The notes under the pieces were generated by a model, which was not told the origin of the DNA, ran no database searches, and worked only from the letters and a program-made list of their open reading frames with translations. Below are positions 16,090 to 27,901 of a stretch of 34,752 bases of DNA, in pieces (the first letter of the stretch is position 1; every line of letters begins with the position of its first letter). The stretch covers positions 1 to 34,752 of IMG/VR virus record IMGVR_UViG_3300023174_000402. The stretch is one strand, 5' to 3'. Both the position numbers and the translations under genes were made by a program. The DNA comes from a virus.

Positions 16090-16107
16090 TTGATACTTCC
16101 TATAGTA

Positions 16108-16342
16108 GCAGGGGGCACTTATGTGCCTCCTGCCTCTATCTATGTCCATAGTTATACTGTGGATATAGATGGGGACTGCTATTGCCATGACACCTACTCA
16201 GCGAAGTAGCATTGTGGTATGTCATGCAGGAGGAGGAGTCTGAGTAGCCGCTATGTCCTGATAGGCCACTGGCCTCACAGCCGTAATGCTTACCTATCGG
16301 TAAGACCAGGTTGGGAGGCTAGTGGCTTATCTATTATCAGGT
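16108..16342 (+). ncRNA. Multi-hairpin structured RNA region
   Basis: Four consecutive helices fill the gap after the 15541 gene. 16108-16118/16123-16133 has 11 bp with one G-U; 16138-16151/16157-16170 has 14 bp with two G-U and a TTATA loop. 16186-16192/16220-16226 is a CATGACA stem enclosing CTACT/AGTAG. The last is a nested element: CCTGATA (16257-16263)/TATCAGG (16335-16341), GCCACTGGCCTC (16265-16276)/GAGGCTAGTGGC (16315-16326, one G-U), and CTTACC-TATC-GGTAAG (16289-16304). CTACTCAG (16194-16201) could instead pair with CTGAGTAG (16240-16247), a possible switch or pseudoknot. No coding signal is seen. Whether it is one RNA, a leader or a sRNA cannot be told from sequence alone. Confidence 0.6.
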
Positions 16343-16353
16343 ATATGGTGGAA

Positions 16354-16460
16354 GATACATAGGCAAGAGCATTGACTCGTAGCCTAGTTGGGTAAGCGCT
16401 TACTACAAGGGTGTCTATGTATCTCTCACTCTCTATCTGAGAGTGGAAAGGAGGAGGTGT
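16354..16460 (+). promoter_or_regulatory. Structured leader, copy 1
   Basis: GATACATAG (16354-16362) pairs with CTATGTATC (16415-16423); three bases later CACTCTC (16427-16433)/GAGAGTG (16439-16445) forms a hairpin immediately before GAAAGGAGGAGGT, the ribosome site of the gene at 16462. The same arrangement recurs at 16844-16940 with changes that keep the pairs. The second helix ends next to the Shine-Dalgarno sequence, so translation control is plausible. Confidence 0.65.
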
Positions 16461-16461
16461 T

Positions 16462-16602
16462 ATGTTTACAGTATCTATAAAGATAGGATTTACCCGCAAA
16501 GAAAAAGAAATTACTGATGTTGCTTGCCATCACTGTGGCAAGACATACAGTATTTCCATTAAGAATATCAGAGCAACTAACTATTGCACTACCTGCAACT
16601 AA
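16462..16602 (+). CDS. 46-aa zinc-knuckle protein
   Basis: Too short for usual gene finders, but preceded by an excellent GGAGGAGGT site. The protein starts MFTVSIKIGFTRKEKEITDV and continues ACHHCGKTYSISIK to a final NYCTTCN, giving CxxC...CxxC, a compact zinc ribbon. Its stop TAA overlaps the start of the next zinc-ribbon gene (TAATG), so the two are probably translated together, both under leader copy 1. Function unknown. Confidence 0.75.
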   Translation: MFTVSIKIGFTRKEKEITDVACHHCGKTYSISIKNIRATNYCTTCN

Positions 16603-16805
16603 TGGAGTGTATCAATTGCGGACAGCCTGTATCTCAGGCTAGATGGGATATAGGTAGGCACACCTGTCTATCTTGTGGCAGTTTACAGGCTAGACAGGCT
16701 ATACAAGATGAGTTCCGTCTTATCCTTATGCCTAAGCAAGGCTTTACCTATGTTCTCTCTGATAGTGATGACCTTAAGAATGGTAAGAGTTCTGGTCGCC
16801 AGTAA
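16602..16805 (+). CDS. 67-aa zinc-ribbon protein
   Basis: ATG at 16602 overlapping the previous stop. The protein MECINCGQPVSQARWDIGRH continues TCLSCGSLQARQAIQDEF and ends with a polar tail. Two CxxC pairs spaced about 18 residues apart, with a Q-A-R-W-D-I-G pattern between them, resemble DksA/TraR-like or IS1-type C4 fingers. With its neighbour it forms a tandem pair of tiny metal-binding proteins. Possible roles include modulating host RNA polymerase, as small phage zinc proteins often do, but this is inference. Confidence 0.75.
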   Translation: MECINCGQPVSQARWDIGRHTCLSCGSLQARQAIQDEFRLILMPKQGFTYVLSDSDDLKNGKSSGRQ

Positions 16806-16843
16806 TCCCCAAAAAATTTTGCCCTTTTCCATAGGTTGTGGAA

Positions 16844-16940
16844 GGTACATAGGACAACAGACTGAGGCTCCCGGTAGCGTGTAGGTCTTTACTTTCCCTA
16901 TGTATCTCTCACTCCTTATGGGAGTGGAAAGCAGGTAGAA
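16844..16940 (+). promoter_or_regulatory. Structured leader, copy 2
   Basis: GGTACATAGG (16844-16853) pairs with CCTATGTATC (16897-16906, one G-U); CACTCC (16910-16915)/GGAGTG (16921-16926) forms the second hairpin, followed by GAAAGCAGGT and the ATG at 16941. Compared with copy 1 the differences are pairing-neutral: A-U becomes G-U in helix 1, and U-A becomes C-G in helix 2, while TATGTATCTCTCACTC and GAGTGGAAAG are identical. Confidence 0.65.
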
Positions 16941-17078
16941 ATGACTGAAGAAGAACTAGATGAAACCCTCAAGTCACTACTGATGAAGGGTCTTATCTCT
17001 GTTTCATATAATGAAAACCTAGAGGCTATGTTCACACCTACGCCTAAAGGTATTGCTGTGGCTGAGGCATACAAGTGA
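16941..17078 (+). CDS. 45-aa winged-helix-like small protein
   Basis: The protein MTEEELDETLKSLLMKGLIS continues with VSYNENLEAMFTPTPKGIAV and ends AEAYK. The helix-turn-strand-strand order with a T-x-K-G-I-A end resembles the recognition part of winged-helix proteins, but it lacks a full domain. A GCAGGT ribosome site is just after leader copy 2, and the stop overlaps the following GTG start (GTGA). Function unknown. Confidence 0.7.
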   Translation: MTEEELDETLKSLLMKGLISVSYNENLEAMFTPTPKGIAVAEAYK

Positions 17079-17254
17079 TTGCCTCAACTACTGTAACTAC
17101 TATTAAGATAACTACCAAGTTGCCTTGTGGTCGTGTAGTTATCTTCTCCTCTACACATACTGCAAAGCGTGTAGTTACACAATTTGTCCCCGAAAAATTC
17201 CCCGAAAGTTTGGCAGTGGAATTGCTGAGAGAGGGGGAGATGTGTTCATTGTAG
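17075..17254 (+). CDS. 59-aa hypothetical protein with GTG start
   Basis: Read by hand: GTG at 17075 overlapping the previous TGA, stop TAG at 17252-17254. The sequence begins (M)IASTTVTTIKITTKLPCGR and continues VVIFSSTHTAKRVVTQFV, then EKFPESLAVELLREGE. It looks like a small beta-hairpin plus helix fold. A larger frame in another phase starting at 17125 has no ribosome site and is not used. No family recognised. Confidence 0.55.
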   Translation: MIASTTVTTIKITTKLPCGRVVIFSSTHTAKRVVTQFVPEKFPESLAVELLREGEMCSL

Positions 17255-17340
17255 GTCTTATTATAGGTATGGCTGTTGTTGCATACCTAATCAACAAGCA
17301 GTATCAAATTGACCAAGAAGATACAGATTGGAGGCAATAA
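17242..17340 (+). CDS. 32-aa single-pass membrane peptide
   Basis: GTG at 17242 preceded by the purine-rich GAGAGGGGGAGAT; the peptide is (M)FIVGLIIGMAVVAYLINK followed by QYQIDQEDTDWRQ. Residues 2-17 form one hydrophobic transmembrane helix, with an acidic polar tail probably in the cytoplasm or periplasm. It overlaps both neighbours. Tiny membrane peptides in phage early regions often alter host membrane or signalling; a holin role is less likely because no lysis gene is adjacent. Confidence 0.6.
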   Translation: MFIVGLIIGMAVVAYLINKQYQIDQEDTDWRQ

Positions 17341-17474
17341 TGCTAGAGCAAGAAAAACTGAATAACTTACTTGAGATATCAAATCAAGTAACAGCAATGC
17401 AAAAACAACTTGCTGCAATACAGGCTGAGTTACATATGCTCAGACTTATCTATGATTTATTGGAGACAAGTTGA
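17340..17474 (+). CDS. 44-aa coiled-coil peptide
   Basis: Starts with TAATG overlap at 17340 and ends with TGATG overlap at 17474. The protein MLEQEKLNNLLEISNQVTAM followed by QKQLAAIQAELHMLRLIYDL is a continuous amphipathic heptad-like helix, so a small coiled coil is expected. Function unknown; co-translated with the membrane peptide before it, it could associate with it. Confidence 0.62.
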   Translation: MLEQEKLNNLLEISNQVTAMQKQLAAIQAELHMLRLIYDLLETS

Positions 17475-17764
17475 TGGCAAGTATCTCTATTATAGAATGC
17501 ACACGCTGTCAATCCCCGCAGGTATTTAAGCCTAAACAATTAGACTCAGATATACCTGTGGCATTGCAGGTCACCATAAATGGTGGCTACATGATGTTCA
17601 TAGACAACGTATACTCTATTGGTGCAGATGATCCTTTTAACTTTATGCTGTGCCACAAATGTGCCCATGAATTTACTAAATTTATGGGTATATCAGAACC
17701 AACAGTAACTCGTTGGCATCCCAAAACAGAAGAGGAGTATTGCTATGGCTGGGAAATCAAATAA
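17474..17764 (+). CDS. 96-aa Cys/His protein, zinc ribbon with insert
   Basis: ATG at 17474 (a TTG one codon earlier is not needed). It starts MASISIIECTRCQSPQVFKP, has a beta-rich middle with YMMFIDNVYSIG, then FMLCHKCAHEFTKFMGISEP. The two CxxC pairs, one at each end of a strand-rich segment, suggest a split zinc ribbon. It is coupled to the preceding peptide and overlaps the next gene by 20 bases. No family recognised. Confidence 0.7.
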   Translation: MASISIIECTRCQSPQVFKPKQLDSDIPVALQVTINGGYMMFIDNVYSIGADDPFNFMLCHKCAHEFTKFMGISEPTVTRWHPKTEEEYCYGWEIK

Positions 17765-17984
17765 ACAAGACAATAAAGACCTGCGTGCTCATGGATACAT
17801 GACACCGGGTGAGTTTGTAGACAAACTTGTGCCTGGACTGAAGGAGTATCTCAAGCACAACTGGGGGTGCAAGCCTGATGAGTTGTATCACCCTGAAGAT
17901 TTATTTTCTAATGCAGAAATATATTTGGAGGTAGCACGCCACGTCATCTGTGACTTTGGCGTTGCACCTGCTGAGAAAGCCTAG
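17745..17984 (+). CDS. 79-aa hypothetical protein, last gene of the operon
   Basis: MAGKSNKQDNKDLRAHGYMT followed by PGEFVDKLVPGLKEYLKHNW and an acidic helix ending FGVAPAEKA. Largely helical after a polar start. It ends 17 bases before a strong terminator. No family recognised, but it resembles small actinophage proteins of unknown role. Confidence 0.68.
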   Translation: MAGKSNKQDNKDLRAHGYMTPGEFVDKLVPGLKEYLKHNWGCKPDELYHPEDLFSNAEIYLEVARHVICDFGVAPAEKA

Positions 17985-18001
17985 CCCGTTCGCTAGGCAA
18001 G

Positions 18002-18050
18002 GGGCCGGAGTAGAGAGTGTGAGGGTACTCTCCTCCGGCCCTTTATCTTT
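18002..18050 (+). terminator. Terminator of the 15.5-18.0 kb operon
   Basis: GGGCCGGAG (18002-18010)/CTCCGGCCC (18033-18041) with inner GAGAGT (18013-18018)/ACTCTC (18027-18032), then TTTATCTTTC. The long stem with a moderate U-tract fits a rho-independent terminator immediately before the large structured RNA region. Confidence 0.8.
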
Positions 18051-18795
18051 CTATACGATGCAGTATGGGCAGGATGGTCCTGCTCATACTGGATTGTATA
18101 GACAATCCAAGGAACACTACCGGACAACAGATGATGCAAGGAAAAGCAGATGCTAAGGATTCGAACGGTATTCCTATGAGAATAGGTAACCCTAATAGAT
18201 TACCGAACCCCTGAACTGGACCCTTCACACTCGATACAACTTCGTGGGTGTATCACTGTGATGGCTAATATCTAAACACCGAAAAAAATATGTAGTGCCA
18301 ATTAAAAGACACAGAACATGTGGTCTATAAAACATGTAACCCCACGACATATTAATCTGTGCAGTGATACAGAATATGGTTGGTCTGACGAGACCTGAGG
18401 TAAAACACGGCCCGTAAGCAACGGGGTATACCTGCTTCCTCACCTGAGTATGTGAAGGCTAAACTGCTCAACACAAACAATCCGCCCGCATAGGTGGTAA
18501 AAGACACACGGTATAGGTTTGTTATACCAATTGGATCTGTGTTCTGTATTTATTTGGATTTAGACGAATACAGCGTGCAGCAAAAGTAACAGTCAGGACG
18601 GACTATAGGGTTGAGATGCTCCGTTGAGATCTAAATTCCTCCTATAGTAAGAGCAGAGTATGTAGGAAAAGACGCGACTGTGCCTACGTACAGAATGAAG
18701 CGACGCAATAAAGCCTGTGAGCTGAGTCCTCCGGTATTCAACAAATAATATCGTGTGTCTCTTACTGTCTATGAACATAGATAGTGGTAAGGATA
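18051..18795 (+). ncRNA. Large structured RNA region, possible GOLLD/ROOL-like RNA
   Basis: No gene with a credible start is seen for about 750 nt, yet helices follow one another. 18061-18074/18078-18091 has 14 bp (one G-U, TGG loop), bounded by CTATAC/GTATAG (18051/18096) or alternatively GGATTGT/ACAATCC. GGTCT/AGACC lies at 18382-18395, and AGGT..CCCGT-aagca-ACGGG..ACCT at 18398-18433. GGTATA/TATACC follows at 18510-18528, CTGTATT/AATACAG at 18544-18573, and ACTATAGG/CCTATAGT at 18602-18648. GTATGTAGG/CCTACGTAC (one G-U) is at 18658-18691, and a final TGTCTATG/CATAGATA stem at 18766-18783. Size and the aquatic phage setting match known giant phage RNAs. The identity is an inference; no consensus was checked. 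Confidence 0.55.
18468..18480 (+). repeat. TCAACACAAACAA, one-mismatch motif copy 1 (in structured RNA)
   Basis: Differs from the exact motif only at the first base. It lies in an unpaired-looking stretch of the 18051-18795 region and is the leftmost member of the set. Confidence 0.7.
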
Positions 18796-18798
18796 ATC

Positions 18799-18954
18799 AT
18801 GACAACAATCAAACAAAATACAAAGATAGACAAATTACTTTTCTTACTTGAAGCCCAGTTGTTTCATGGGTTGACTCGTAAGGAAGCGTTAATGCTATGG
18901 AACGATGGCATTGATACGCTACACAGCATGGTAGAAAATATCTACCTTGACTAA
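18799..18954 (+). CDS. 51-aa hypothetical protein
   Basis: ATG at 18799-18801 with AAGGAT upstream; the protein starts MTTIKQNTKIDKLLFLLEAQ and continues LFHGLTRKEALMLWNDGIDT. It is helical; the LTRKEALMLW segment looks like a short helix-turn-helix half, but the protein is too small for a full domain. It follows the structured RNA directly, with the final hairpin 8 nt before its ribosome site. Confidence 0.65.
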   Translation: MTTIKQNTKIDKLLFLLEAQLFHGLTRKEALMLWNDGIDTLHSMVENIYLD

Positions 18955-18976
18955 TCTATGCCGGAAGGATAGATAA

Positions 18977-19255
18977 ATGGCAAAAAATAAATCAAGCGGT
19001 GGTCGTAATGATAACCGCCCAAATGGCAAGGCTTCAAAAAAGAATCCTGGCCCTGCTCAAACACCAAAGACTAACTTCGATCATATAAATGGTCGTAGTT
19101 CTGCAAACAATGCCAAGCGTGAAGCTTGGAAAGCTGCTGGCGGTCGTTGGAACCACAAATCAATTCCACATTGGAAGACCGGTAAGGTTTACCAAGCATC
19201 TAACATCGCACCTGCGTTTGATCCAAGTAAGTTAGAAGAATTAACTAATGCGTAG
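18977..19255 (+). CDS. 92-aa basic, polar protein
   Basis: ATG at 18977 with GGAAGGAT upstream. A disordered Lys/Asn/Gly-rich start (MAKNKSSGGRNDNRPNGKAS) is followed by FDHINGRSSANNAKREAWKA and GGRWNHKSIPHWKTGKVYQA. It is strongly basic, with Trp and His residues that could contact nucleic acid. No family recognised. It overlaps the next gene by 8 bases. Confidence 0.7.
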   Translation: MAKNKSSGGRNDNRPNGKASKKNPGPAQTPKTNFDHINGRSSANNAKREAWKAAGGRWNHKSIPHWKTGKVYQASNIAPAFDPSKLEELTNA

Positions 19256-19556
19256 GAAAAAGATAGTTAAAGTTCTTGAGCGTGCAATCATTGAGGCTCA
19301 AGAAGAACTGCATTTCGAAGAGCAACAAAATGCTCGTGCATATAACAGTGGCCTCATGGATGGTGTAGGACTAGCATTACAAATGTTAAAGCCAACTTCA
19401 TCTGTGATATCTCTCACATCATCATGGTGGGAGGAGCCAACACAAACACTCGAACGCACACGGGAGCGTGTCATCGAGTTCCAGTATGTTGACATGGAAG
19501 ATCCAGAACCTGTAGTCTCCAGCTCAATGTTATTTGAGACAGCGGAGGCAACATGA
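19248..19556 (+). CDS. 102-aa hypothetical protein carrying motif copy 2
   Basis: ATG CGT AGG start overlapping the preceding gene. The first half is a charged helix (VLERAIIEAQEELHFEEQQN) and then GLMDGVGLALQML; the second half is acidic and probably extended. The repeat motif CCAACACAAACA lies in frame at 19437-19448, encoding P-T-Q-T. The stop overlaps the next ATG (ATGA). No family recognised. Confidence 0.68.
   Translation: MRRKKIVKVLERAIIEAQEELHFEEQQNARAYNSGLMDGVGLALQMLKPTSSVISLTSSWWEEPTQTLERTRERVIEFQYVDMEDPEPVVSSSMLFETAEAT
19437..19448 (+). repeat. CCAACACAAACA motif, copy 2 (in CDS)
   Basis: Exact 12-base motif, in frame as P-T-Q-T within the 102-residue gene. One of a set of eight (one with a mismatch at 18468-18479, TCAACACAAACA) discussed in the findings. 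Confidence 0.8.
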
Positions 19557-20293
19557 GTTATTTATCTCATTATTCGTATGCTGATTGGCAGTCGTATTTA
19601 GCAGATGGTCGTAAAAAATATGAAAGACCATTATATGCTGCTCGTAGTTGGCGTATTGAATACGTCAACAAATTTAATAAACAATCAGATATACAAATAA
19701 CAAATAAATGGGTGAATAATCATCCAATTATTACAATTCATCCTGATAATACTAGAACATTATCAGTTCCACAAAATCTTGGAAATGGATGGGGTGGCAC
19801 ATGGAATCCATTAACTAGCACAAATGTTAAATTAACAATATGGAAATTTACAGGCGTTGATATTAAACAACGTAACTATAAACATTACATATATGAAAAA
19901 AATGCAAAGTTAACACCATCAAAAATACAAGGTTGCCGTATGTGTTCACAGACTGGCCTGGTAGATGGTTGGTGTAATGCAAAGTCATGTTGGGGTATAA
20001 ACACACAAATCAGTGGTTGTTCTATACACCCTGATATAACAATATCAGAGGTAGAACAACAACGTGGCAGACATGTTATAGCATGTGAACATGGAAGTAT
20101 GCATTCTCATAATGTAAAACGTAGTCAACAATGTTATTCATGCAATGGTACAAAAAAACGTGACTACGGAAACAAACGAGTTTCTGTGCCTTGGGATGGT
20201 TCCCCAATTAAGGTGCAGGATGGCAACATAGTAAGAAAACCACTAACCGATCTAGAAAGGATGGTAGCCGCGTATGCTGGACCTACATCTTAA
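19553..20293 (+). CDS. 246-aa protein with DnaJ-like Cys motifs
   Basis: The N-terminal 110 residues are beta-rich with many aromatics (MSYLSHYSYADWQSYLADGR). The C-terminal half holds CRMCSQTGLVDGWCNAKSCW (about 127-146) and CYSCNGTKKR (about 199-208), resembling the CxxCxGxG repeats of DnaJ zinc fingers, with further Cys/His between them. The DNA is distinctly richer in A and T, with long A-runs, than neighbouring genes, hinting at a different origin. It overlaps the next gene by 20 bases. The function is unknown; a metal-bound RNA- or protein-binding role is plausible. Confidence 0.7.
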   Translation: MSYLSHYSYADWQSYLADGRKKYERPLYAARSWRIEYVNKFNKQSDIQITNKWVNNHPIITIHPDNTRTLSVPQNLGNGWGGTWNPLTSTNVKLTIWKFTGVDIKQRNYKHYIYEKNAKLTPSKIQGCRMCSQTGLVDGWCNAKSCWGINTQISGCSIHPDITISEVEQQRGRHVIACEHGSMHSHNVKRSQQCYSCNGTKKRDYGNKRVSVPWDGSPIKVQDGNIVRKPLTDLERMVAAYAGPTS

Positions 20294-20774
20294 ATATGAT
20301 CCAAACATCTCAGTAGCATCACACACAACTTCAGGAACAACCGAACCTGTAGTCGCTGCTGAGTTACTCAAAGGTGGACATCTACCGGAGAATTTAATAG
20401 TAATCTCCGAGATATCCACTAACTTCAGAGATGCAGTCATTAACAGACTAGTAAAAACTAGTAACGGCGACGATGCAGAGCGAGTAGTGCAACTACTTTC
20501 TGCAGCAATCTCTTCTACTCCTGATGAAATGGTTAACACCATTAAAACATACAGCGAGTACCTTGCTCCGCTTTCATTTGCATGGGGCGAAACTGTTCTG
20601 GCTACACGTACAGTGTTACGTAATAAACCAGGCAACTCTGGGAACTTCTTAGCAACCATTGCTGATGCGTTGAATAAGAAGATGAACAGTGAAATGTTCA
20701 AGTCCCTCATAATGAACAGCACAGCCAGTGCTGAACAGGTAGTAGAGCTTGAAAAAGCTCAAGGCAAATACTAA
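20274..20774 (+). CDS. 166-aa helical protein
   Basis: The protein starts MLDLHLKYDPNISVASHTTS and is then mainly alpha-helical (for example ENLIVISEISTNFRDAVINR and MVNTIKTYSEYLAPLSFAWG), ending VVELEKAQGKY. A GAAAGGATGG sequence provides the ribosome site within the previous gene. The stop is immediately followed by repeat motif copy 3. No family recognised. Confidence 0.7.
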   Translation: MLDLHLKYDPNISVASHTTSGTTEPVVAAELLKGGHLPENLIVISEISTNFRDAVINRLVKTSNGDDAERVVQLLSAAISSTPDEMVNTIKTYSEYLAPLSFAWGETVLATRTVLRNKPGNSGNFLATIADALNKKMNSEMFKSLIMNSTASAEQVVELEKAQGKY

Positions 20775-20788
20775 CCAACACAAACAAA
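20775..20788 (+). repeat. CCAACACAAACAAA motif, copy 3 (intergenic)
   Basis: Begins at the base right after the TAA stop of the 20274 gene and precedes the ribosome site of the next gene by about 25 bases. Exact copy. Confidence 0.85.
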
Positions 20789-20812
20789 ACACACCCCGAG
20801 AAAGGGTAGCCA

Positions 20813-21106
20813 ATGTCCGAAGAGGATGAGTTGGACAATTATAACGCACCGCAAAATGGCTCAGTGCACGATATAAATGCATGCGGCAATTGTGGTCGTC
20901 GTATCCAAGCACATCAAAAGTACTTGGAGATTTACAACACACGGCGTAAAAACTACGAGCATTACCACGAGTCATATCTTGGTTGTTACGAGTCTACACG
21001 TGAAAGCGGTCGTAGAGTAATAATAGACCGTTGGCAAAGAAGTATCAATTTTGATACTTACGAACTTGATGGTCAAGTTCGTATCTCAACCGGATGGCAA
21101 CTATAG
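20813..21106 (+). CDS. 97-aa protein with zinc-binding CxxC
   Basis: ATG at 20813 with GAGAAAGGG upstream. The acidic start is followed by DINACGNCGRRIQAHQKYLE and a His/Tyr-rich stretch NYEHYHESYLGCYEST. CxxC plus later His and Cys could bind one zinc. The C-terminal third is beta-like (RISTGWQL end). It is the last gene before the closed RNA region at 21108-21337. Confidence 0.68.
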   Translation: MSEEDELDNYNAPQNGSVHDINACGNCGRRIQAHQKYLEIYNTRRKNYEHYHESYLGCYESTRESGRRVIIDRWQRSINFDTYELDGQVRISTGWQL

Positions 21107-21107
21107 G

Positions 21108-21337
21108 CTAACGACTGAGGTGGGAGTTTTGTAAACGAAAACCTCACTCCGTTAGTTAGTTAATACATCCAATGTTTGGTTGGCCAAGCTTACCTCAACC
21201 ATACTTGACCAATTCTAGACCCGAATAATTTATAGGCTCACGCATTAGTAGTACCAAGTAATTAATGTATGCGAGATGAGAAGATAAAGTGCGATGCAGT
21301 CCAGTCCCTGGAAGCAACGGGAGTAGGCCAACCAAAC
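21108..21337 (+). ncRNA. Structured leader RNA with 12-bp closing helix
   Basis: A first hairpin CTAACG (21108-21113)/CGTTAG (21150-21155), with TGAGG/CCTCA and TTTT/AAAA inside, directly follows a stop codon. Then GTTTGGTTGGCC (21174-21185) pairs perfectly with GGCCAACCAAAC (21326-21337), enclosing 140 nt that contain CTC-a-CGCAT (21237-21245)/ATGCGAG (21269-21275) and a TCCC/GGGA hairpin near 21304-21322. The closing helix ends 20 nt before the ATG at 21357. This riboswitch-like layout precedes the operon of the AAA+ ATPase and VWA protein. No known riboswitch class is recognised. Confidence 0.6.
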
Positions 21338-21356
21338 AGTTAGAGAAAGGAAACAT

Positions 21357-21593
21357 ATGTGTCACGAGTGTGATGATGAAGGAATTGAACCTCAAGAGTT
21401 TACTCTTGACATGATTCCAGAAGAAGAAAGAGAAGAATTCTTGGACTTTGCAGTTGATAAGTTCAGGAAAGTCATGGACAAAGCAATTAAACATGACGTC
21501 TTGTTTGAACTAATAACAGAATGGCCTGCACAAAAACAGTCCATGTTCACTCTCGCCACCGTTTTAGAAGAAAGAATTCTAGGTGACGATTAA
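21357..21593 (+). CDS. 78-aa acidic helical protein
   Basis: ATG at 21357 with GAGAAAGGAAA upstream. The protein MCHECDDEGIEPQEFTLDMI is strongly acidic with CxxC at its start, then helices containing EEREEFLDFAVDKFRKVMDK and a final LEERILGDD. It is first in the AAA+/VWA operon, so it may be an accessory factor of that pair. No family recognised. Confidence 0.7.
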   Translation: MCHECDDEGIEPQEFTLDMIPEEEREEFLDFAVDKFRKVMDKAIKHDVLFELITEWPAQKQSMFTLATVLEERILGDD

Positions 21594-21617
21594 ACCAAAC
21601 AAAGAGAAAGGTAACAA

Positions 21618-23027
21618 ATGGACATAGCAATGTTCACTGAGTCGTACAGTGAGAATCTTGAAGGCAAACGTCGTCAAGTTCTCATTACACCACATAATGA
21701 TAATGTGCGTGTGTACTCAAGGTTAACTGATGGAACGAAAGGTCCTCACAACAAATGGGAGGAAACTACGTTAGATGAGTTGACAACTGAGGTCCAAGAC
21801 GAAGAGATATTGACACGAACTCCTGTGGGTGTGTATGTCACACCACCAGATCAACGTGCAATGACTTCTAAAGGATACTCTCCAGTGTTGGGCACCAAGG
21901 CATGCGATAAGCATTCTAAGGCTGAACCAACAACAGATACCACACCATTAGTAGAAGTTTTATGTAACTTCTACGAAAAAATCAGTATAGGAGATGATTC
22001 ATTGGAAACATACGTAACAGATAATCGTGCTTCAACAAGCACAACAGTTCCGTTGGTAATTACTGTTCCAACACAAACAAACGAAGACGCTGCGCCTGTT
22101 CAACAGTCCGCATCTCCATCGTTTGCTGTGTCATTGGCAACCGTTCCTCCAATTGAATTAGCTGAACGGTATGTGCATCGTAAAGTTTACGGAGTCTCAG
22201 ACTTTGTAACGTTTGATGAAGCACGTGCTGATCACATCAATGTTCTTATCTATGGCCCAACAGGTCCTGGTAAGACTACAGCTGTTGAAGCGTGGGCCGC
22301 AGAACGTGGTCTTCGTATGGCAACAGTATCTGGTAACGCATCTATGGAATCTCGCCAATTATTTGGTGGCTTTATTCCTGATGGTATTGGTGGCTATGGG
22401 TGGATTGATGGCCCAGTCACTGATGTAGTTCGCAATGGTGGTGTGCTTTTACTGGACGAGATGAACTTCATCAGTCCTAAAATCTACACAACACTATATC
22501 CACTCACCGATGGTCGTCGTAGTATTACACTGCTCGACCACATGGGTGAAACAATCGTGGCCCACAAAGATCTTACAATCTTTGCAACCATGAATCCCGA
22601 TTATATCGGTACTACTCCACTCAACTTTGCTATGCGTAATCGTTTTGACATTCAATTGTCATGGGATTATGACGATGCAGTTGAGTCCAAGTTGGTTTCT
22701 TCTAAATCATTGCTATTGCTAGTCAAGCAATTGCGTTCTGAAGCAGCCAAAGGTCAATATGAAACACCAATCTCAACTAATATGCTCATGGAAATAGAAA
22801 AGTTCATTAATAATAAGAACTTTGGTTATGAGTTTGCAGTTGAGAACTTCATTGCTCACTTCTCAGCAGATGAGCAAGCATCTGTGCGTCTGGTATTCCA
22901 GACACACGAACACAACATCAAGACTGACTTCGGTATTGAAGTACCAGTTGAGCTAGAGAAGGAAGTAGATGTTGACATTGATACTCAGTTAGCACAATGG
23001 GTATCAGCACAATCCACCACAGTCTAG
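21618..23027 (+). CDS. MoxR/CobS-type AAA+ ATPase
   Basis: An ATP-driven remodelling enzyme. The N-terminal 185 residues are poorly conserved and Thr-rich. The AAA+ core then shows Walker A IYGPTGPGKTTAVEAW (about 211-226), a pore-like segment GNASMESRQLFGGFIPDGI, Walker B GGVLLLDEMNF (about 272-283), sensor 1 ATMNPDYIGTTPLNFAMRNR with the arginine finger (about 322-343), and a helical lid. MoxR-type ATPases work with VWA proteins on metal or cofactor insertion or complex assembly; phage relatives are often labelled CobS. The partner VWA gene follows 9 bases later. Motif copy 4 lies in frame in a Thr-rich linker (22068-22081). Confidence 0.88.
   Translation: MDIAMFTESYSENLEGKRRQVLITPHNDNVRVYSRLTDGTKGPHNKWEETTLDELTTEVQDEEILTRTPVGVYVTPPDQRAMTSKGYSPVLGTKACDKHSKAEPTTDTTPLVEVLCNFYEKISIGDDSLETYVTDNRASTSTTVPLVITVPTQTNEDAAPVQQSASPSFAVSLATVPPIELAERYVHRKVYGVSDFVTFDEARADHINVLIYGPTGPGKTTAVEAWAAERGLRMATVSGNASMESRQLFGGFIPDGIGGYGWIDGPVTDVVRNGGVLLLDEMNFISPKIYTTLYPLTDGRRSITLLDHMGETIVAHKDLTIFATMNPDYIGTTPLNFAMRNRFDIQLSWDYDDAVESKLVSSKSLLLLVKQLRSEAAKGQYETPISTNMLMEIEKFINNKNFGYEFAVENFIAHFSADEQASVRLVFQTHEHNIKTDFGIEVPVELEKEVDVDIDTQLAQWVSAQSTTV
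22068..22081 (+). repeat. CCAACACAAACAAA motif, copy 4 (in AAA+ gene)
   Basis: Exact copy in a Thr-rich linker of the AAA+ protein, in frame as P-T-Q-T-N. Confidence 0.85.
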
Positions 23028-23036
23028 GGAGGTTAC

Positions 23037-24890
23037 ATGTTTCAAGAAGACCTAAATGAACAGTGGTATATGAAAGAGAAAGATGAGGAAACACAGATTC
23101 GTTCTGTGAGACTTAATGCTCTCTGTCGTGTGTATGAGCAAGCTGACCGTGTTCTCTCCGGAGATCCGGTTACTATTAATGTAGTAGATGATGGTCCAGC
23201 ACCTGCGTGGTCTGACGGTCAGTCTATTACCTTTAATGCTAATGAGATTGAGGATATGGATCTTGAGACACTAACTCAAGTAAACGGCCTTAACTATCAT
23301 GAGCTAGCCCATCACCTGTATACGCCTCGCAAAGGCACAACGTTCATAAAATGGGTAATGGAAAATGATTACATAGAGTCTGCCAATATGTTAGAAGACC
23401 AACGTATTGAGACTCTTTTAATTGCTCGTTATCCATCTATTACACCGTATCTAACAGCCACAATTGCTAGGTGGTTGTCAAGCACACCCGATGAGGCTAT
23501 AGGTAACTATATGCTGGTGCGTGGGCGTAGATACTTACCAATTGAAATCAGGCAAGCATTCCGAGATATGTTTGCTAAGCCTGAACTTGTGCCAGTCATT
23601 GCAGATATTGTAGATCAATATCGTTTACTGGCATTCCCACGTGACTATGCCAAAGGTCAAGAGTTAATCAAACGTTGGAACGATGAGGTATTGCAGAAGC
23701 TAGACTTTCCTAAAATGCCTAAAGGTCCTAACGGTTGTACTTCACGTGACCCAATAGGTAAAGGTCGTCCTGAACCTGGTAAAGCACAAGAGAAAGATGC
23801 ACAACGTGCTACCGGTATGGGTAATGCTGAGTCTACAAATATGCAGACTAAACCTAATCCAACTACCAACACAAACAAACCACCGCAACCACAGACTGCT
23901 GAAGAAGCTCTAGCAATTAGAGAGCAAGCACAGCAATCAATACAAGGACAAGAACCTGGTGGATTAAAACCTGGTACAGGTCATATAGAAAGCGTTGGTG
24001 GAATACCTAACAATATACAAGAACTGCTTGAGGATACCATCCAGTTAGTGTTAGAACGTAAAGACGTTCAACAGGATGTTAAGACGAAGCAAAAAGTAAT
24101 TGTAGGTGGTGATGGTAAACACGATGATGTTTTACGGAAAGGTAAGTTTGACATAACTACCGTTCCTACAGCATCTATGGTTCTATATCGTAAGTTTGCA
24201 CGTGAACTACAACGTTTACGTGATGACTGTGAACCTATGTGGCATCGTGAAGAAGCCAGCGGTAAACTTAATGTTCAACGTGCAATCAGAGGCTGTGAAG
24301 TTGATGAAGCCTTTGATCGTTGGGATGAAGGTAGCGATGGTGCTGATGTAGAAGCCGTAATCATGGTTGATAGATCAGGTTCTATGTCCGGTAATCGTAA
24401 CGATATGCATGCATCTATTGCATGTTGGACTATCAAACGTGCTCTAGAACAAATTGGGGCACCGGTTACAGTATATGCATTCGATGATAAAGCTGAAGTA
24501 GCTTATGGTCGTAATGAACTAGCAAGTAAAACACAATACAAGTTCATATATGGTAGTGGTGGAACTAATCCGTACTCAACACTACTTGCTGCTGAACAAC
24601 TTCTAATGTCTTCTCGTAAGAAAAATAAAATGTTGTTCATGATTACCGATGGTGCGTTTGATGCTAGAAAAAATGATGAAATAATTCAACGCATCTCAAA
24701 ACGAGGTATCCTAACAGTCATGACCTTAATCATGGATGATAGAGATATGGCGTATTACACAGAACGTGGTGAAGAAGAAAAGTCTTGGCGACATGAAGCG
24801 GAAGTTTATGGCCGTATTAAAACAGCCAAAGACTTACTGCCATTCGCTAAGTCTGTAGTAACAGGTGCAATCAAAAAGCGTGGACGCTAG
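23037..24890 (+). CDS. VWA protein with HExxH metallopeptidase-like domain
   Basis: Partner of the AAA+ ATPase. At residues 86-93 lies NYHELAHH, a zinc-protease HExxH motif (His88, Glu89, His92), followed 24 residues later by ANMLEDQRIE, the N-x-x-E-D-x-R pattern of the metallopeptidase-like domain found in front of VWA-like domains (DUF2201 type). A disordered Pro/Gln/Asn-rich linker spans about 245-335. The C-terminal VWA domain has a complete MIDAS VDRSGSMSG (Asp445, Ser447, Ser449) and a later GSGGTNPYSTL threonine. A GGGAGG site precedes the ATG. CobT-labelled phage proteins have similar order. Motif copy 5 falls in the linker in a different reading phase. Confidence 0.85.
   Translation: MFQEDLNEQWYMKEKDEETQIRSVRLNALCRVYEQADRVLSGDPVTINVVDDGPAPAWSDGQSITFNANEIEDMDLETLTQVNGLNYHELAHHLYTPRKGTTFIKWVMENDYIESANMLEDQRIETLLIARYPSITPYLTATIARWLSSTPDEAIGNYMLVRGRRYLPIEIRQAFRDMFAKPELVPVIADIVDQYRLLAFPRDYAKGQELIKRWNDEVLQKLDFPKMPKGPNGCTSRDPIGKGRPEPGKAQEKDAQRATGMGNAESTNMQTKPNPTTNTNKPPQPQTAEEALAIREQAQQSIQGQEPGGLKPGTGHIESVGGIPNNIQELLEDTIQLVLERKDVQQDVKTKQKVIVGGDGKHDDVLRKGKFDITTVPTASMVLYRKFARELQRLRDDCEPMWHREEASGKLNVQRAIRGCEVDEAFDRWDEGSDGADVEAVIMVDRSGSMSGNRNDMHASIACWTIKRALEQIGAPVTVYAFDDKAEVAYGRNELASKTQYKFIYGSGGTNPYSTLLAAEQLLMSSRKKNKMLFMITDGAFDARKNDEIIQRISKRGILTVMTLIMDDRDMAYYTERGEEEKSWRHEAEVYGRIKTAKDLLPFAKSVVTGAIKKRGR
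23866..23879 (+). repeat. CCAACACAAACAAA motif, copy 5 (in VWA gene)
   Basis: Exact copy in the disordered linker of the VWA protein, but in a different reading phase (T-N-T-N-K) from copies 2 and 4, showing that the DNA sequence rather than the peptide is preserved. Confidence 0.85.
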
Positions 24891-24891
24891 T

Positions 24892-24905
24892 CCAACACAA
24901 ACAAA
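24892..24905 (+). repeat. CCAACACAAACAAA motif, copy 6 (intergenic)
   Basis: Starts one base after the TAG stop of the VWA gene and runs into the AAAGGAG ribosome site of the next gene. Confidence 0.85.
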
Positions 24906-24915
24906 GGAGAATAAA

Positions 24916-25107
24916 ATGCACGTTATATTCGACAGTCTCACTGAGACTTTGATAGGTCCATTCAATGACTACGAGAGCGCTCAAATGTGGCTCTTGTACG
25001 CATCAGATGAGATAACAGATGGTGGAGCTAACCTTACTATCGAATCTATATCTGAGCCAGAAGAATGGGCACAAGATAACCAAATCACAATGGCATCTTT
25101 TGCATGA
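24916..25107 (+). CDS. 63-aa hypothetical protein
   Basis: Start MHVIFDSLTETLIGPFNDYE at 24916, preceded by AAAGGAG; a longer frame from 24865 would run through the VWA gene end and is rejected. Small alpha/beta protein resembling the DUF-type single domains common in phages (strand, E-x-A-Q helix, strand). Its stop overlaps the next ATG (ATGA). Confidence 0.7.
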   Translation: MHVIFDSLTETLIGPFNDYESAQMWLLYASDEITDGGANLTIESISEPEEWAQDNQITMASFA

Positions 25108-25214
25108 GTGAAGAAGTTATTGATATAACCGCTTGGCGTAATCAAATTAAACTCCGTAAGCTTTTAGAAGAACATGAGGCTGAGGATCTTATCCCTATGT
25201 TGTTAGGAGACTAA
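25104..25214 (+). CDS. 36-aa helical peptide
   Basis: ATG at 25104 overlapping the previous TGA, stop TAA at 25212-25214. The peptide MSEEVIDITAWRNQIKLRKL followed by LEEHEAEDLIPMLLGD is one amphipathic helix with an acidic end. The tight overlap supports translation. Function unknown. Confidence 0.55.
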   Translation: MSEEVIDITAWRNQIKLRKLLEEHEAEDLIPMLLGD

Positions 25215-25346
25215 ATGGAAATACATGCACTTATATCTTGCTACAACTGCAAAGATATATTGTCAGATGATGGGTATGAAATAACTTACCCAGATGGATG
25301 TATCTATACAGTGTGCAAAACATGTTCTGAGGTAAAACTATGGTAA
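25215..25346 (+). CDS. 43-aa zinc-ribbon peptide
   Basis: ATG at 25215 one base after the previous stop with TTAGGAG upstream. The protein MEIHALISCYNCKDILSDDG ends IYTVCKTCSEVKLW, i.e. CxxC...CxxC. It overlaps the next ATG by 7 bases. Another member of the unusually numerous tiny zinc-ribbon genes of this phage. Confidence 0.62.
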   Translation: MEIHALISCYNCKDILSDDGYEITYPDGCIYTVCKTCSEVKLW

Positions 25347-25828
25347 ATACATTTCTACCGTGGCCAGATGAACAAAAGACAGCTAAATCCTTAGACAACA
25401 AGAGACTAGGTAAGCAACGTGTTGAAGCATTGCAAATACTTAGGGCCAACTTGGGTTTAACTAAAGGATGGCGTAACCACCCAGCAGCAGTTATGTGGCG
25501 TGGGCACGAAGGTGCACTTGCTCAATATATCTGTGCAATGTGTGACGAATGGGAAAATCGTGGGTACACAGACAATGTGCGTGCCCAAGTACTAGAGTTA
25601 TGGAAAGCTAATACTTTCCCCAACTCTTCATTTAATCAACCATGGTGGTGGGGTAAACGCCAGTTCCATCGCTCACACAAATCTAATCTAAAGCGCAAAG
25701 ATCCTGATTACTACAGTTTCAATGTGCCAGACGATCTGCCATACCGATGGCCTACGCCAGACGGTACTTTCCGTACAACAGAGAAAAAGGAGAAAAAGAA
25801 TGATAGTGACACGCAAACAAGCCTGTGA
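25340..25828 (+). CDS. MSMEG_6728-like / pyrimidine-dimer DNA glycosylase family protein
   Basis: The opening MVNTFLPWPDEQKTAKSLDN with KRLGKQRVEALQIL, then GWRNHPAAVMWRGHEGALAQ, and FHRSHKSNLKRKDPDYYS is the conserved skeleton of the MSMEG_6728 family, related to pyrimidine-dimer glycosylase/AP-lyase (endonuclease V of phage T4 type). It probably acts in repair of UV damage, a sensible trait for a phage of sunlit surface water. The catalytic N-terminal residue cannot be assigned with certainty: here Val2-Asn3-Thr4. The charged tail (TTEKKEKKND) lies where the next gene's ribosome site begins. Confidence 0.75.
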   Translation: MVNTFLPWPDEQKTAKSLDNKRLGKQRVEALQILRANLGLTKGWRNHPAAVMWRGHEGALAQYICAMCDEWENRGYTDNVRAQVLELWKANTFPNSSFNQPWWWGKRQFHRSHKSNLKRKDPDYYSFNVPDDLPYRWPTPDGTFRTTEKKEKKNDSDTQTSL

Positions 25829-26282
25829 GTTCATCACAGAGTCACTTAACAATGACATAGAGTTAACTGGTGAGAAACTGGAAGCAGTTATCTTAGCAGT
25901 TAACTCAGACCTACAAGTGCGTGACTGGCTTATGGGTCTACCTAACCGGTGGTCTATAGATGAGGGTATCAAGTTCATGCAGTATATGTGTGTGCATGCT
26001 CCCACTGAAGACTTGGTGCCATTTGTAACGTTGCAAGCTCTTTACTACTATGAGCTAGGCGATACAGAGAAAACAACCAGCTTATTAAACTATGCACTAA
26101 GACTTAATAAAAACTATGAATTAGCAAAGTTGTTATTAAGAGTGTTTAATGCGGGTTGGCCTGCAGACCAATTTGCAACCATGCGTAACGAACTCGATCC
26201 TCAGATTCTTGAGAATTGTTACGGACCAGAAGGAGCAACAACTATCAAAGAAAATGGAGAGCTACAGTATGTTAAAGTATAA
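25800..26282 (+). CDS. DUF4192-like protein
   Basis: True start ATG at 25800 (MIVTRKQACEFITESLNND) after AAGGAG inside the preceding gene's end. The segments VRDWLMGLPNRW, then LVPFVTLQALYYYELGDTEK and YELAKLLLRVFNAGWPADQF match the C-terminal half of actinobacterial DUF4192 proteins, which have a repeat of about two helices followed by a small-residue turn. The family is found almost only in actinobacteria and their phages, so it is a host clue; its role is unknown. It is a shorter form than the usual DUF4192 of about 350 residues. Confidence 0.75.
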   Translation: MIVTRKQACEFITESLNNDIELTGEKLEAVILAVNSDLQVRDWLMGLPNRWSIDEGIKFMQYMCVHAPTEDLVPFVTLQALYYYELGDTEKTTSLLNYALRLNKNYELAKLLLRVFNAGWPADQFATMRNELDPQILENCYGPEGATTIKENGELQYVKV

Positions 26283-26463
26283 AGTAACAATACACGATCA
26301 TATAATCTATGACTATATAGTTGAAGCAGACAGTATGCAAGAAGCTATCAACAGGGCAGAAGACACCATCACTAATGATGAGTCTCACCTATGGTTAAAA
26401 GATGAACAGGCTGGTTGGACAGAGATTGGATCCGTGTACAACGAAGACGGAGAAGAGATTTGA
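26269..26463 (+). CDS. 64-aa hypothetical protein
   Basis: Start MLKYKVTIHDHIIYDYIVEA at 26269 after GGAGAG; the earlier in-frame starts lie in the DUF4192-like gene. The strand-strand-helix pattern (ADSMQEAINRAEDTI) is typical of tiny phage single-domain proteins with an A-x-x-A helix. The stop is directly followed by motif copy 7. Confidence 0.7.
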   Translation: MLKYKVTIHDHIIYDYIVEADSMQEAINRAEDTITNDESHLWLKDEQAGWTEIGSVYNEDGEEI

Positions 26464-26464
26464 C

Positions 26465-26477
26465 CCAACACAAACAA
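26465..26477 (+). repeat. CCAACACAAACAA motif, copy 7 (intergenic)
   Basis: Starts one base after the TGA stop of the 26269 gene. It continues with TCCCGC, similar to TCCGCC after the copy at 18468. Confidence 0.85.
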
Positions 26478-26511
26478 TCCCGCTAGAATGTAATATAACG
26501 AAAGGGGATAA

Positions 26512-26700
26512 ATGGAGTACGACCTACGTGTTACGTTCAGAGTCAAACTCAAAAAATGGAGAATAGACGACCAAAGTGATCCAGCTAATAGGGAATGGAG
26601 CTTAAAAGTCTATGATAGAAATCTAGGTGAGTGGACTCACATCAATTATCTTAATAGACCTGGTGAGGAAGCTTATCTAGAATCAGTTGAAGAAATATAA
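26512..26700 (+). CDS. 62-aa hypothetical protein
   Basis: ATG at 26512 with GAAAGGGG upstream. MEYDLRVTFRVKLKKWRIDD followed by REWSLKVYDRNLGEWTHINY: beta-rich, with a basic first half. The following sequence is a strong terminator, so it ends a transcription unit. No family recognised. Confidence 0.7.
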   Translation: MEYDLRVTFRVKLKKWRIDDQSDPANREWSLKVYDRNLGEWTHINYLNRPGEEAYLESVEEI

Positions 26701-26729
26701 AACCCCGGGGCGCAATATCCCGGGGTTTT
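26701..26729 (+). terminator. Rho-independent terminator
   Basis: AAAACCCCGGG/CCCGGGGTTTT stem (7 bp GC-rich core 26703-26709/26719-26725) with a 9-base loop and TTTTG tail immediately after the stop at 26700. Confidence 0.85.
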
Positions 26730-26749
26730 GAGGGTGTGAACTCTGTTCT

Positions 26750-26778
26750 TTGAGAGCTAACACTCATAAGTCTACACT
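26750..26778 (+). promoter_or_regulatory. Putative sigma70-type promoter
   Basis: TTGAGA (26750-26755) and TACACT (26773-26778) separated by exactly 17 bases, placed just after a terminator and about 20 bases before the ATG at 26799. The position between terminator and gene supports it. Confidence 0.55.
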
Positions 26779-26798
26779 AAGAAAGGGGAAACAATGTA

Positions 26799-27035
26799 AT
26801 GCTGTTCGCATCATTTCCAATAAAAACTAAAGAAATAAGAAAATTGGTAGATGCTTTAGAGATAGCTGGCTTAGAAGTCAGTATTACCTCAGGTAAACAC
26901 CATATAAAGGTAGTAAACCCAGAGACAAGAAAGGTGGTCTTCTTTGGACCTCAATCTTTGGGAGATCGTAGAGCTGGCAGAAACATACTGCGAGATCTTA
27001 AAAAGGTTGGATTCAACAAAGACATAAAACTATAA
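26799..27035 (+). CDS. HicA-like small dsRBD-fold protein
   Basis: The protein MLFASFPIKTKEIRKLVDAL, then ITSGKHHIKVVNPETRKVVF and GDRRAGRNILRDLKKVGF has the alpha-beta-beta-beta-alpha order of HicA/YcfA toxins with the catalytic-type His in SGKHHIKV. Known HicA proteins are mRNA interferases neutralised by HicB. No HicB-like neighbour is recognised: the next gene has no HicB pattern. An AUGUAA start-stop sits at 26794, between the GGGG ribosome site and this ATG, which may lower translation. Confidence 0.68.
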   Translation: MLFASFPIKTKEIRKLVDALEIAGLEVSITSGKHHIKVVNPETRKVVFFGPQSLGDRRAGRNILRDLKKVGFNKDIKL

Positions 27036-27045
27036 GGAGAAATAA

Positions 27046-27333
27046 ATGGCTAAAATAACAAAAACACTAAATGCAGCACTAACCAAGAACACAGCAGTAC
27101 CAAAAGGCGGAGCATGGCTCTTGACTATCACTGAAGGTGTTAGCGGAGCTATATCCGAAGGTCCAGGCGTGCACTCTGCATGGGCTAATCCATCAGCAGC
27201 TAAACGCTATCTAAAAGACTACGTAATCAATAACACTCCACGTAAGTCAATTAAAATGGTAATTGGAGCAACAAATGATGCAGGAAAACCTACACATCTA
27301 TCAGGTGAGTTAAGTTGGAAGGCGGATGCTTAA
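27046..27333 (+). CDS. 95-aa basic beta-rich protein
   Basis: ATG at 27046 after AAGGAG. MAKITKTLNAALTKNTAVPK continues GGAWLLTITEGVSGAISEGP and PRKSIKMVIGATNDAGKPTH. Basic overall, with a WLLTITEG strand. No family recognised. It follows the HicA-like gene by 10 bases; it could be an antidote in function but does not look like HicB. Stop overlaps the next ATG (TAATG). Confidence 0.68.
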   Translation: MAKITKTLNAALTKNTAVPKGGAWLLTITEGVSGAISEGPGVHSAWANPSAAKRYLKDYVINNTPRKSIKMVIGATNDAGKPTHLSGELSWKADA

Positions 27334-27467
27334 TGGATATGGAAACAGTACTACCGTTTAAAACCGTAAATGATGTAGTCAAAGAAATAAAAGAAACCAC
27401 AGAACTATCGTTATTAGAAACAAAACAATGTGGCTGTAATAACTGCAACTGTGAAGGAGAAATATAA
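27333..27467 (+). CDS. 44-aa Cys-rich peptide
   Basis: ATG at 27333 overlapping the previous TAA, stop at 27465-27467, one nucleotide before the next ATG. MDMETVLPFKTVNDVVKEIK and a C-terminal TKQCGCNNCNCEGEI with four closely packed cysteines (CxCxxCxC), metallothionein-like or a zinc cluster. Function unknown. Confidence 0.6.
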   Translation: MDMETVLPFKTVNDVVKEIKETTELSLLETKQCGCNNCNCEGEI

Positions 27468-27677
27468 ATGCCAAAGTTCAGAGTAATGTTTAGTGTGCAA
27501 AAAACTGGCACATTAATATTTGACGCTGATACAGCAGAAGATGCCAAGGATATATATGAACAGCTTCTAGCTGGTGATACATATCCAGACGAGTTGGAGA
27601 GCCATGAAGATATAGAAGACTCTGACACTCAATACTTTGAGTTAACCGATAACTCAGGTCGTGTGTTAGCTAGTTAA
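27468..27677 (+). CDS. 69-aa hypothetical protein
   Basis: ATG at 27468 after GAAGGAG. MPKFRVMFSVQKTGTLIFDA followed by DTAEDAKDIYEQLLAGDTYP: strand-strand-helix with an acidic second half, resembling the small protein at 26269-26463 (both have a V-strand, then A-D/E-S/T helix). They may be distant paralogues. It is the last rightward gene of the segment. Confidence 0.7.
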   Translation: MPKFRVMFSVQKTGTLIFDADTAEDAKDIYEQLLAGDTYPDELESHEDIEDSDTQYFELTDNSGRVLAS

Positions 27678-27692
27678 TTAGGACAAGCAAAA

Positions 27693-27750
27693 GGCCCCTG
27701 ACTCTTAATTGAGTCGGGGGCCAAATGTTTGTGTTGGCGTTTTTTTTACG
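27693..27750. terminator. Bidirectional terminator between converging genes
   Basis: GGCCCC-t-GACTC / GAGTC-g-GGGGCC around 27693-27722 with a 6-base loop. On the minus strand the stem is followed by TTTTGC, so it ends the acidic-protein transcript; on the plus strand a T8 run lies 18 bases further on (27740-27747), flanked by GGCGT/ACGCC. It separates convergent units. Confidence 0.75.
27726..27737 (-). repeat. CCAACACAAACA motif, copy 8 (minus strand)
   Basis: Exact copy on the minus strand, eight bases past the stop of the acidic 48-residue gene and therefore in the direction of that gene's transcription, just before its terminator stem. Confidence 0.85.
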
Positions 27751-27892
27751 CCTCGTTTACAGGCTCGTCATCTACAAGGTCTGCTTCAAGGTCTTCTAGA
27801 TCTTCTTCATCAAGGTCTAGTTCATCAAAACCATCTTCAAAGTCTTCTTCAAAGTCTTCGTCAAATAGGTCTGGGTTTAGATCGTCTGACAT
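27746..27892 (-). CDS. 48-aa extremely acidic protein
   Basis: ATG at 27890-27892 preceded by AAGGAGAAAAC. The sequence MSDDLNPDLFDEDFEEDFED continues with GFDELDLDEEDLEDLEADLV and ends DEPVNEA. Of 48 residues 26 are Asp or Glu and none is Lys, Arg or His, with Leu/Phe spaced every three or four residues, so a negatively charged amphipathic helix is expected. DNA-mimic inhibitors (Ocr, Arn, DMP19 types) have this composition but are usually longer. It might also be an anti-sigma-like or RNA-polymerase-binding peptide. Confidence 0.78.
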   Translation of the reverse strand: MSDDLNPDLFDEDFEEDFEDGFDELDLDEEDLEDLEADLVDDEPVNEA

Positions 27893-27901
27893 GTTTTCTC
27901 C

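Follow-up and report, generated by a model that had tools for sequence, protein, structure and literature searches.

A near-invariant, one-way 12-base repeat along a single operon of a family of about 100-kb phages: a possible transcription-elongation control site

To our knowledge, dispersed one-way elongation sites are documented mainly as the stoperators of temperate mycobacteriophages. The stoperators of cluster A phages (L5, Bxb1, TipsytheTRex; PMC6550527, PMC9283540) are numerous asymmetric sites of 12-13 bp that are oriented with transcription and often located in short intergenic gaps. Their consensus changes from phage to phage along with the repressor (PMC6550527), their dependence on orientation has been published on the basis of reversal (PMC9283540), and an action on elongation has been proposed for them, as it is here for the repeat described below. 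The start-associated sequences of cluster K phages (PMC3203893) are likewise asymmetric repeats of 13 bp, mostly in one orientation and with a lone opposite-strand copy in some genomes, but they lie directly upstream of start codons, whereas the copies described here lie after stops or mid-gene. The omega repressor/ParB of pSM19035 (PMC9499535; PDB 2bnw), which is the nearest solved sequence relative (E 0.0013) of a candidate reader protein discussed below, reads non-palindromic heptads and requires contiguous arrays of them at promoters and centromeres (PMC9499535); here, in contrast, no ParA was found and the 12-mers stand singly, at distances of about 1.2 kb. The Actinomycetia phage DSL-LC01 (OQ999401) resembles the present phages in its RNR (77% identical) and in having an ATPase gene paired with a cobalamin-type gene in a rightward operon. 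It lacks the 12-mer, however; in the region of its ATPase gene (17000-45000) two other repeats, a TATAAT-containing one and a GAAAGGACA one, occur instead in up to 17-18 oriented copies.

The window, i.e. the whole stretch of DNA that was analysed (34,752 bases), is a 34.7-kb fragment of a phage of about 100 kb and not a whole genome. When both strands were scanned, the 12-mer CCAACACAAACA was found in seven exact copies and one copy with a single mismatch, each at the position and on the strand reported in the initial annotation. As reported there, no copy lies outside 18.4-27.8 kb: a scan of all 34,752 bases at up to two mismatches returned nothing beyond these eight. The rarity that had been claimed for the motif also holds under a second-order Markov model, which predicts 0.008 exact copies on both strands (seen: seven); none of 60 windows simulated under it contained one. 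The count at two mismatches alone (8 found against 4.6 expected) masks the signal, because nearly all matches are exact. The features of the locus are as follows.

18468..27737, plus strand: the part of the rightward operon that holds the array, with gaps of 969-1798 bp, coefficient of variation (CV) 0.20 against 0.83 expected
18468..18479, plus strand: motif copy 1, TCAACACAAACA, the tolerated C1>T variant, in a gene-poor leader
19437..19448, plus strand: motif copy 2, within the gene at 19248-19556, phase 0, read as Pro-Thr-Gln-Thr
20775..20786, plus strand: motif copy 3, 0 nt past the TAA of the gene at 20274-20774
21618..23027, plus strand: AAA-ATPase gene (phrog_249 / phrog_16448), the bait for relatives
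22068..22079, plus strand: motif copy 4, in the AAA-ATPase gene, within a linker rich in indels, phase 0 (CCA ACA CAA ACA)
23037..24890, plus strand: CobT-like gene (weak phrog_17276 match)
23866..23877, plus strand: motif copy 5, within the CobT-like gene, phase 1
24892..24903, plus strand: motif copy 6, 1 nt past the CobT-like stop and ahead of the next ribosome-binding site
26465..26476, plus strand: motif copy 7, 1 nt past the TGA of the ORF at 26149-26463
27693..27722, no strand assigned: GC-rich hairpin at the convergent junction, with a 12-pair stem usable by both transcripts
27726..27737, minus strand: motif copy 8, reversed, 8 nt past the stop of a leftward acidic-protein gene and 3 nt ahead of the terminator hairpin

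Several other features of the window were recorded. The rightward operon has a leader (16100-18970) with few genes and many hairpins, among them a strong terminator-like one near 18000-18059, ahead of copy 1; the only Rfam match was the tRNA, and the leader had none. Within the array operon, a terminator-like hairpin (26701-26730) is followed by a sigma-70-like promoter with 9 of 12 matching positions (26750-26778), and the last three genes may therefore have a start of their own. The leftward gene immediately preceding the minus copy encodes a small, very acidic protein (27746-27895), and similar acidic proteins precede the minus copy in relatives too. A tgt/DpdA-like gene (30485-31963, phrog_887) may indicate modified guanines in the DNA. 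A palindrome, CTATGATCATAG, is found where the late genes and the array operon diverge (window 15240, G017 44938, G002 94467), with a few additional copies at other places; as a linked operator it was rejected, being lost in distant genomes.

Relatives were retrieved with the ATPase gene (21618-23027) as bait, giving 57 loci in total, namely the window and 56 relatives with ATPase identities of 52-94%. The initial annotation had named a chance-level frequency, or loss at homologous positions, as grounds for abandoning the motif; copies are present in all 57 loci (56 of 56 relatives selected by ATPase), homologous sites persist although their flanks diverge, and most loci carry a full array. 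All 25 first-round records had the motif at up to one mismatch and the second-round loci were likewise positive. Some distant loci hold few copies (two or three in L173-L179, four in L023), and L190 shows one in the stretch covered. The motif was absent from DSL-LC01 and from bases 1-50000 of BRock. The family, known from environmental samples, probably of fresh water, consists of myoviruses of about 100 kb with their own replication genes; their hosts are probably freshwater bacteria of the actinobacteria.

The consensus is YCRACAYAAACM followed by a tail of about 10 nt that is C-rich and T-poor. In dereplicated plus-strand sites the 12-mer is followed by A, by A or T and then by about 8-10 C-rich, T-poor positions, and sites within genes do not differ in this from intergenic ones. 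Few changes are tolerated (C1>T, which is the commonest variant among relatives, C7>T, A12>C and A3>G), the other single changes occurring once or twice each; a reversed-motif control gave 17 matches at up to one mismatch in 1.1 Mb. The core, which consists purely of A and C and is predicted to be unpaired, is unchanged across the 57 loci, even at 52% ATPase identity, with the sole exception of G139, which has mainly shifted to CCGACACAAACA. Four of the six G139 copies, including the minus copy, have this form, and the copies of that genome therefore drift jointly.

The motif is selected at the nucleic-acid level, as had been proposed because the in-gene copies do not share one reading phase (19437 and 22068 are in phase 0, 23866 in phase 1). 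The ATPase-linker codons ACA CAA ACA do not vary among 12 phages despite insertions and deletions nearby, whereas at other invariant columns of the same 12 ATPases Thr is encoded by 2-4 codons each and Gln by two codons each. The copy at the 20774/20775 boundary is likewise retained in relatives while both flanks diverge.

In G002, G017 and G025, whose genes were called approximately, with a simple script, the copies follow a single rightward operon of about 13-14 kb, transcribed against most of the genome, and hardly occur outside it and its convergent end. G002 and G025 each have a shorter rightward run as well, which contains none. The first copy lies about 1-3.4 kb inside the operon, the copies of the array are all co-oriented with transcription, and the last copy, which is reversed, lies immediately past the convergent junction. 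Some stray copies beyond the array in distant genomes are located within genes and may be due to chance. The typical spacing is about 1.2 kb and is far more even than random placement: the gap CV is 0.18-0.30 in nine of 11 arrays (p <= 0.001 each; expected 0.83-0.89) and about 0.5 in the other two (L008 and L011), these 11 arrays being kin and not 11 independent trials. Exact TATAAT on the plus strand is absent or, in the window, present just twice (window, L017 and L025), so internal promoters are not obvious.

The copies that had been described as starting 0-8 nt after a stop codon do so at 0 nt (20775), 1 nt (24892), 1 nt (26465) and, on the minus strand, 8 nt (27726). Of all plus copies, 21% have a stop codon no more than 2 nt before their start (control positions: 4%) and 37% have one no more than 10 nt before it (control: 9%). 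The minus copies that were inspected lie between a stop codon and a strong hairpin, and such a hairpin follows 49 of 52 minus copies within 45 nt, compared with 12% of control positions; the order stop, motif, hairpin recurs at another four leftward copies, in distant records. In L192, two minus copies 53 bp apart (17698 and 17751) are each followed by a hairpin of their own. Hairpins follow 10% of plus copies against 12% of control positions, i.e. without enrichment, and the need for one, suspected by eye, was rejected because folding scores equalled background. The motif as a generic terminator element was also rejected: across the window and three near-complete genomes it is missing from most strong terminators, and of the 5-14 strong ones that point leftward in each genome just one carries it.

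The reading we favor, at a probability of roughly 0.4 and on sequence comparison, is that the repeat is a phage-specific, orientation-dependent site controlling transcription elongation. RNA polymerase that enters the site in the direction of the motif would be halted or paused by a factor specific for the sequence; this factor is most likely a conserved protein of the phage and probably binds double-stranded DNA. With one site about every 1.2 kb, polymerases in the operon, presumably an early one, would in most phages reach a site within about 0.5-1.8 kb, and such serial sites could shut off or pace the entire long operon at once. The reversed copy, jointly with the opposing operon's terminator, would keep leftward polymerases from antisense entry into the array operon. 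Elongation control, and its stopping side in particular, is suggested by the orientation with transcription, the even spacing, the lack of obvious internal promoters and the terminator that accompanies the reversed copy. Several points count against it: under constitutive stopping, the messages of the ATPase and CobT-like genes would be truncated at the copies within them; hairpins are not enriched after plus copies; few of the strong leftward terminators carry the motif, one per genome; and a C-rich, T-poor tail is an unusual feature for a protein-DNA site. Antitermination is also a possible action of the plus copies. The repeat may even belong to an elongation-pacing system of lytic phages that has not been described before, in which a conserved phage protein acts on even, one-way duplex sites along one operon, could thereby stop all of its polymerases together, and a mirror site guards the far end against convergent transcription; this we regard as rather doubtful.

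The same tail, together with the pure A/C core and its predicted unpaired state, fits a site on nascent RNA, an unstructured A/C-rich element at which an RNA-binding factor of the phage or the host (of the NusA, Rho or antitermination type) would be reloaded about every 1.2 kb, or which would serve message processing or stability. This is a possibility to be taken seriously, as the excess of plus copies within 10 nt past a stop places them in untranslated RNA and the minus copies lie in a 3' UTR directly ahead of a hairpin. The motif may resemble the mycobacterial NusA boxC site, but no known element was matched by sequence. Ribosomes, however, would cover the in-gene copies, the near-chance frequency in candidate-host genomes (see below) makes a general host factor unlikely, and copies at the extreme ends of leftward transcripts are not what simple antitermination would lead one to expect. 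The even spacing of about 1.2 kb and the fixed orientation could instead reflect sites of DNA maintenance or replication (centromere-like parS, primer/Okazaki sites, fork barriers or nick sites), and the ribbon-helix-helix candidate described below resembles omega, which is also a ParB (PMC9499535). This is improbable, as no ParA (PF13614) was detected in 12 near-complete genomes (controls positive), the array is limited to one operon of about 10-14 kb, the minus copies are tied to terminators, and omega sites are contiguous heptads and not single sites 1 kb apart.

The parallel with the immunity stoperators of temperate phages, drawn when the motif was first noticed, stands as far as form is concerned: both are asymmetric, dispersed, 12-13 bp long and oriented with transcription, and often occur right after stops or in short intergenic gaps (PMC9283540). 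It fails as to membership, and that the repeat is itself a set of stoperators of the cluster A type is very improbable. Tyrosine and serine integrases (PF00589, PF00239) were, like ParA, absent from the 12 near-complete genomes, and no lysogeny genes of these families were found in this group of myoviruses with their own replication genes. Cluster A sites are spread genome-wide and include the early promoter, whereas those of G002, G017 and G025 hardly leave one operon and its convergent end; the spacing here is over-regular, and the motif is near-invariant across very divergent phages, unlike that of stoperators (PMC6550527). A promoter or translation signal comparable to start-associated sequences is likewise very improbable. 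Some copies do lie immediately ahead of a ribosome-binding site (24892; L018 13295), but many are located mid-gene, hundreds of bases from any start, and the distance to the next start varies from about 10 to more than 1000 nt; the promoter reading was rejected on these grounds.

In 101 Nanopelagicales (acI) genomes the motif had 18 matches against 9 for the reversed control, which is near chance; a candidate-host sequence signal was thus rejected and a phage-encoded reader is the likelier one, the order being a plausible, unproven host. A host search with the ATPase bait gave no match in genome contigs, and the phage tRNA-Asn matches two acI genomes at just 83%. The literature matches listed for CCAACACAAACA or its complement were unrelated. 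A candidate reader, linked to the motif circumstantially by association, is a 53-aa ribbon-helix-helix (RHH) protein present in 24 of 24 motif-bearing records, and not found in the motif-less DSL-LC01 or in the approximately 89% of BRock covered. Its residues 7-14 (T7-V14) are invariant while the remainder varies. The predicted model is of the RHH type; its nearest folds are those of Arc and CopG, with all matches weaker than E 0.001, and the nearest sequence is the omega repressor (E 0.002, under the Pfam cut-off; PDB 2bnw, E 0.0013). Several other small proteins are distributed similarly and many core proteins are common to these phages; in G139 the RHH arm is unchanged although the copies have drifted to CCGACACAAACA, which counts against this reader. 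A second candidate is a SpoVS-like (Alba-type) protein (L153:12382-12660, from G017), which is 83-91% identical across five motif phages and also occurs in BRock (57%).

The 12-mer is a signature by which this phage group can be spotted in metagenomes. Its design is that of stoperators, here in an apparently non-temperate myovirus family and with a near-invariant motif, even spacing and a mirror copy. If confirmed, the reading as elongation control would mean serial control of elongation in the lytic cycle, and would provide a clean system (one 12-mer, one operon and a 53-aa candidate) for the blocking of RNA polymerase in one direction by a bound protein.
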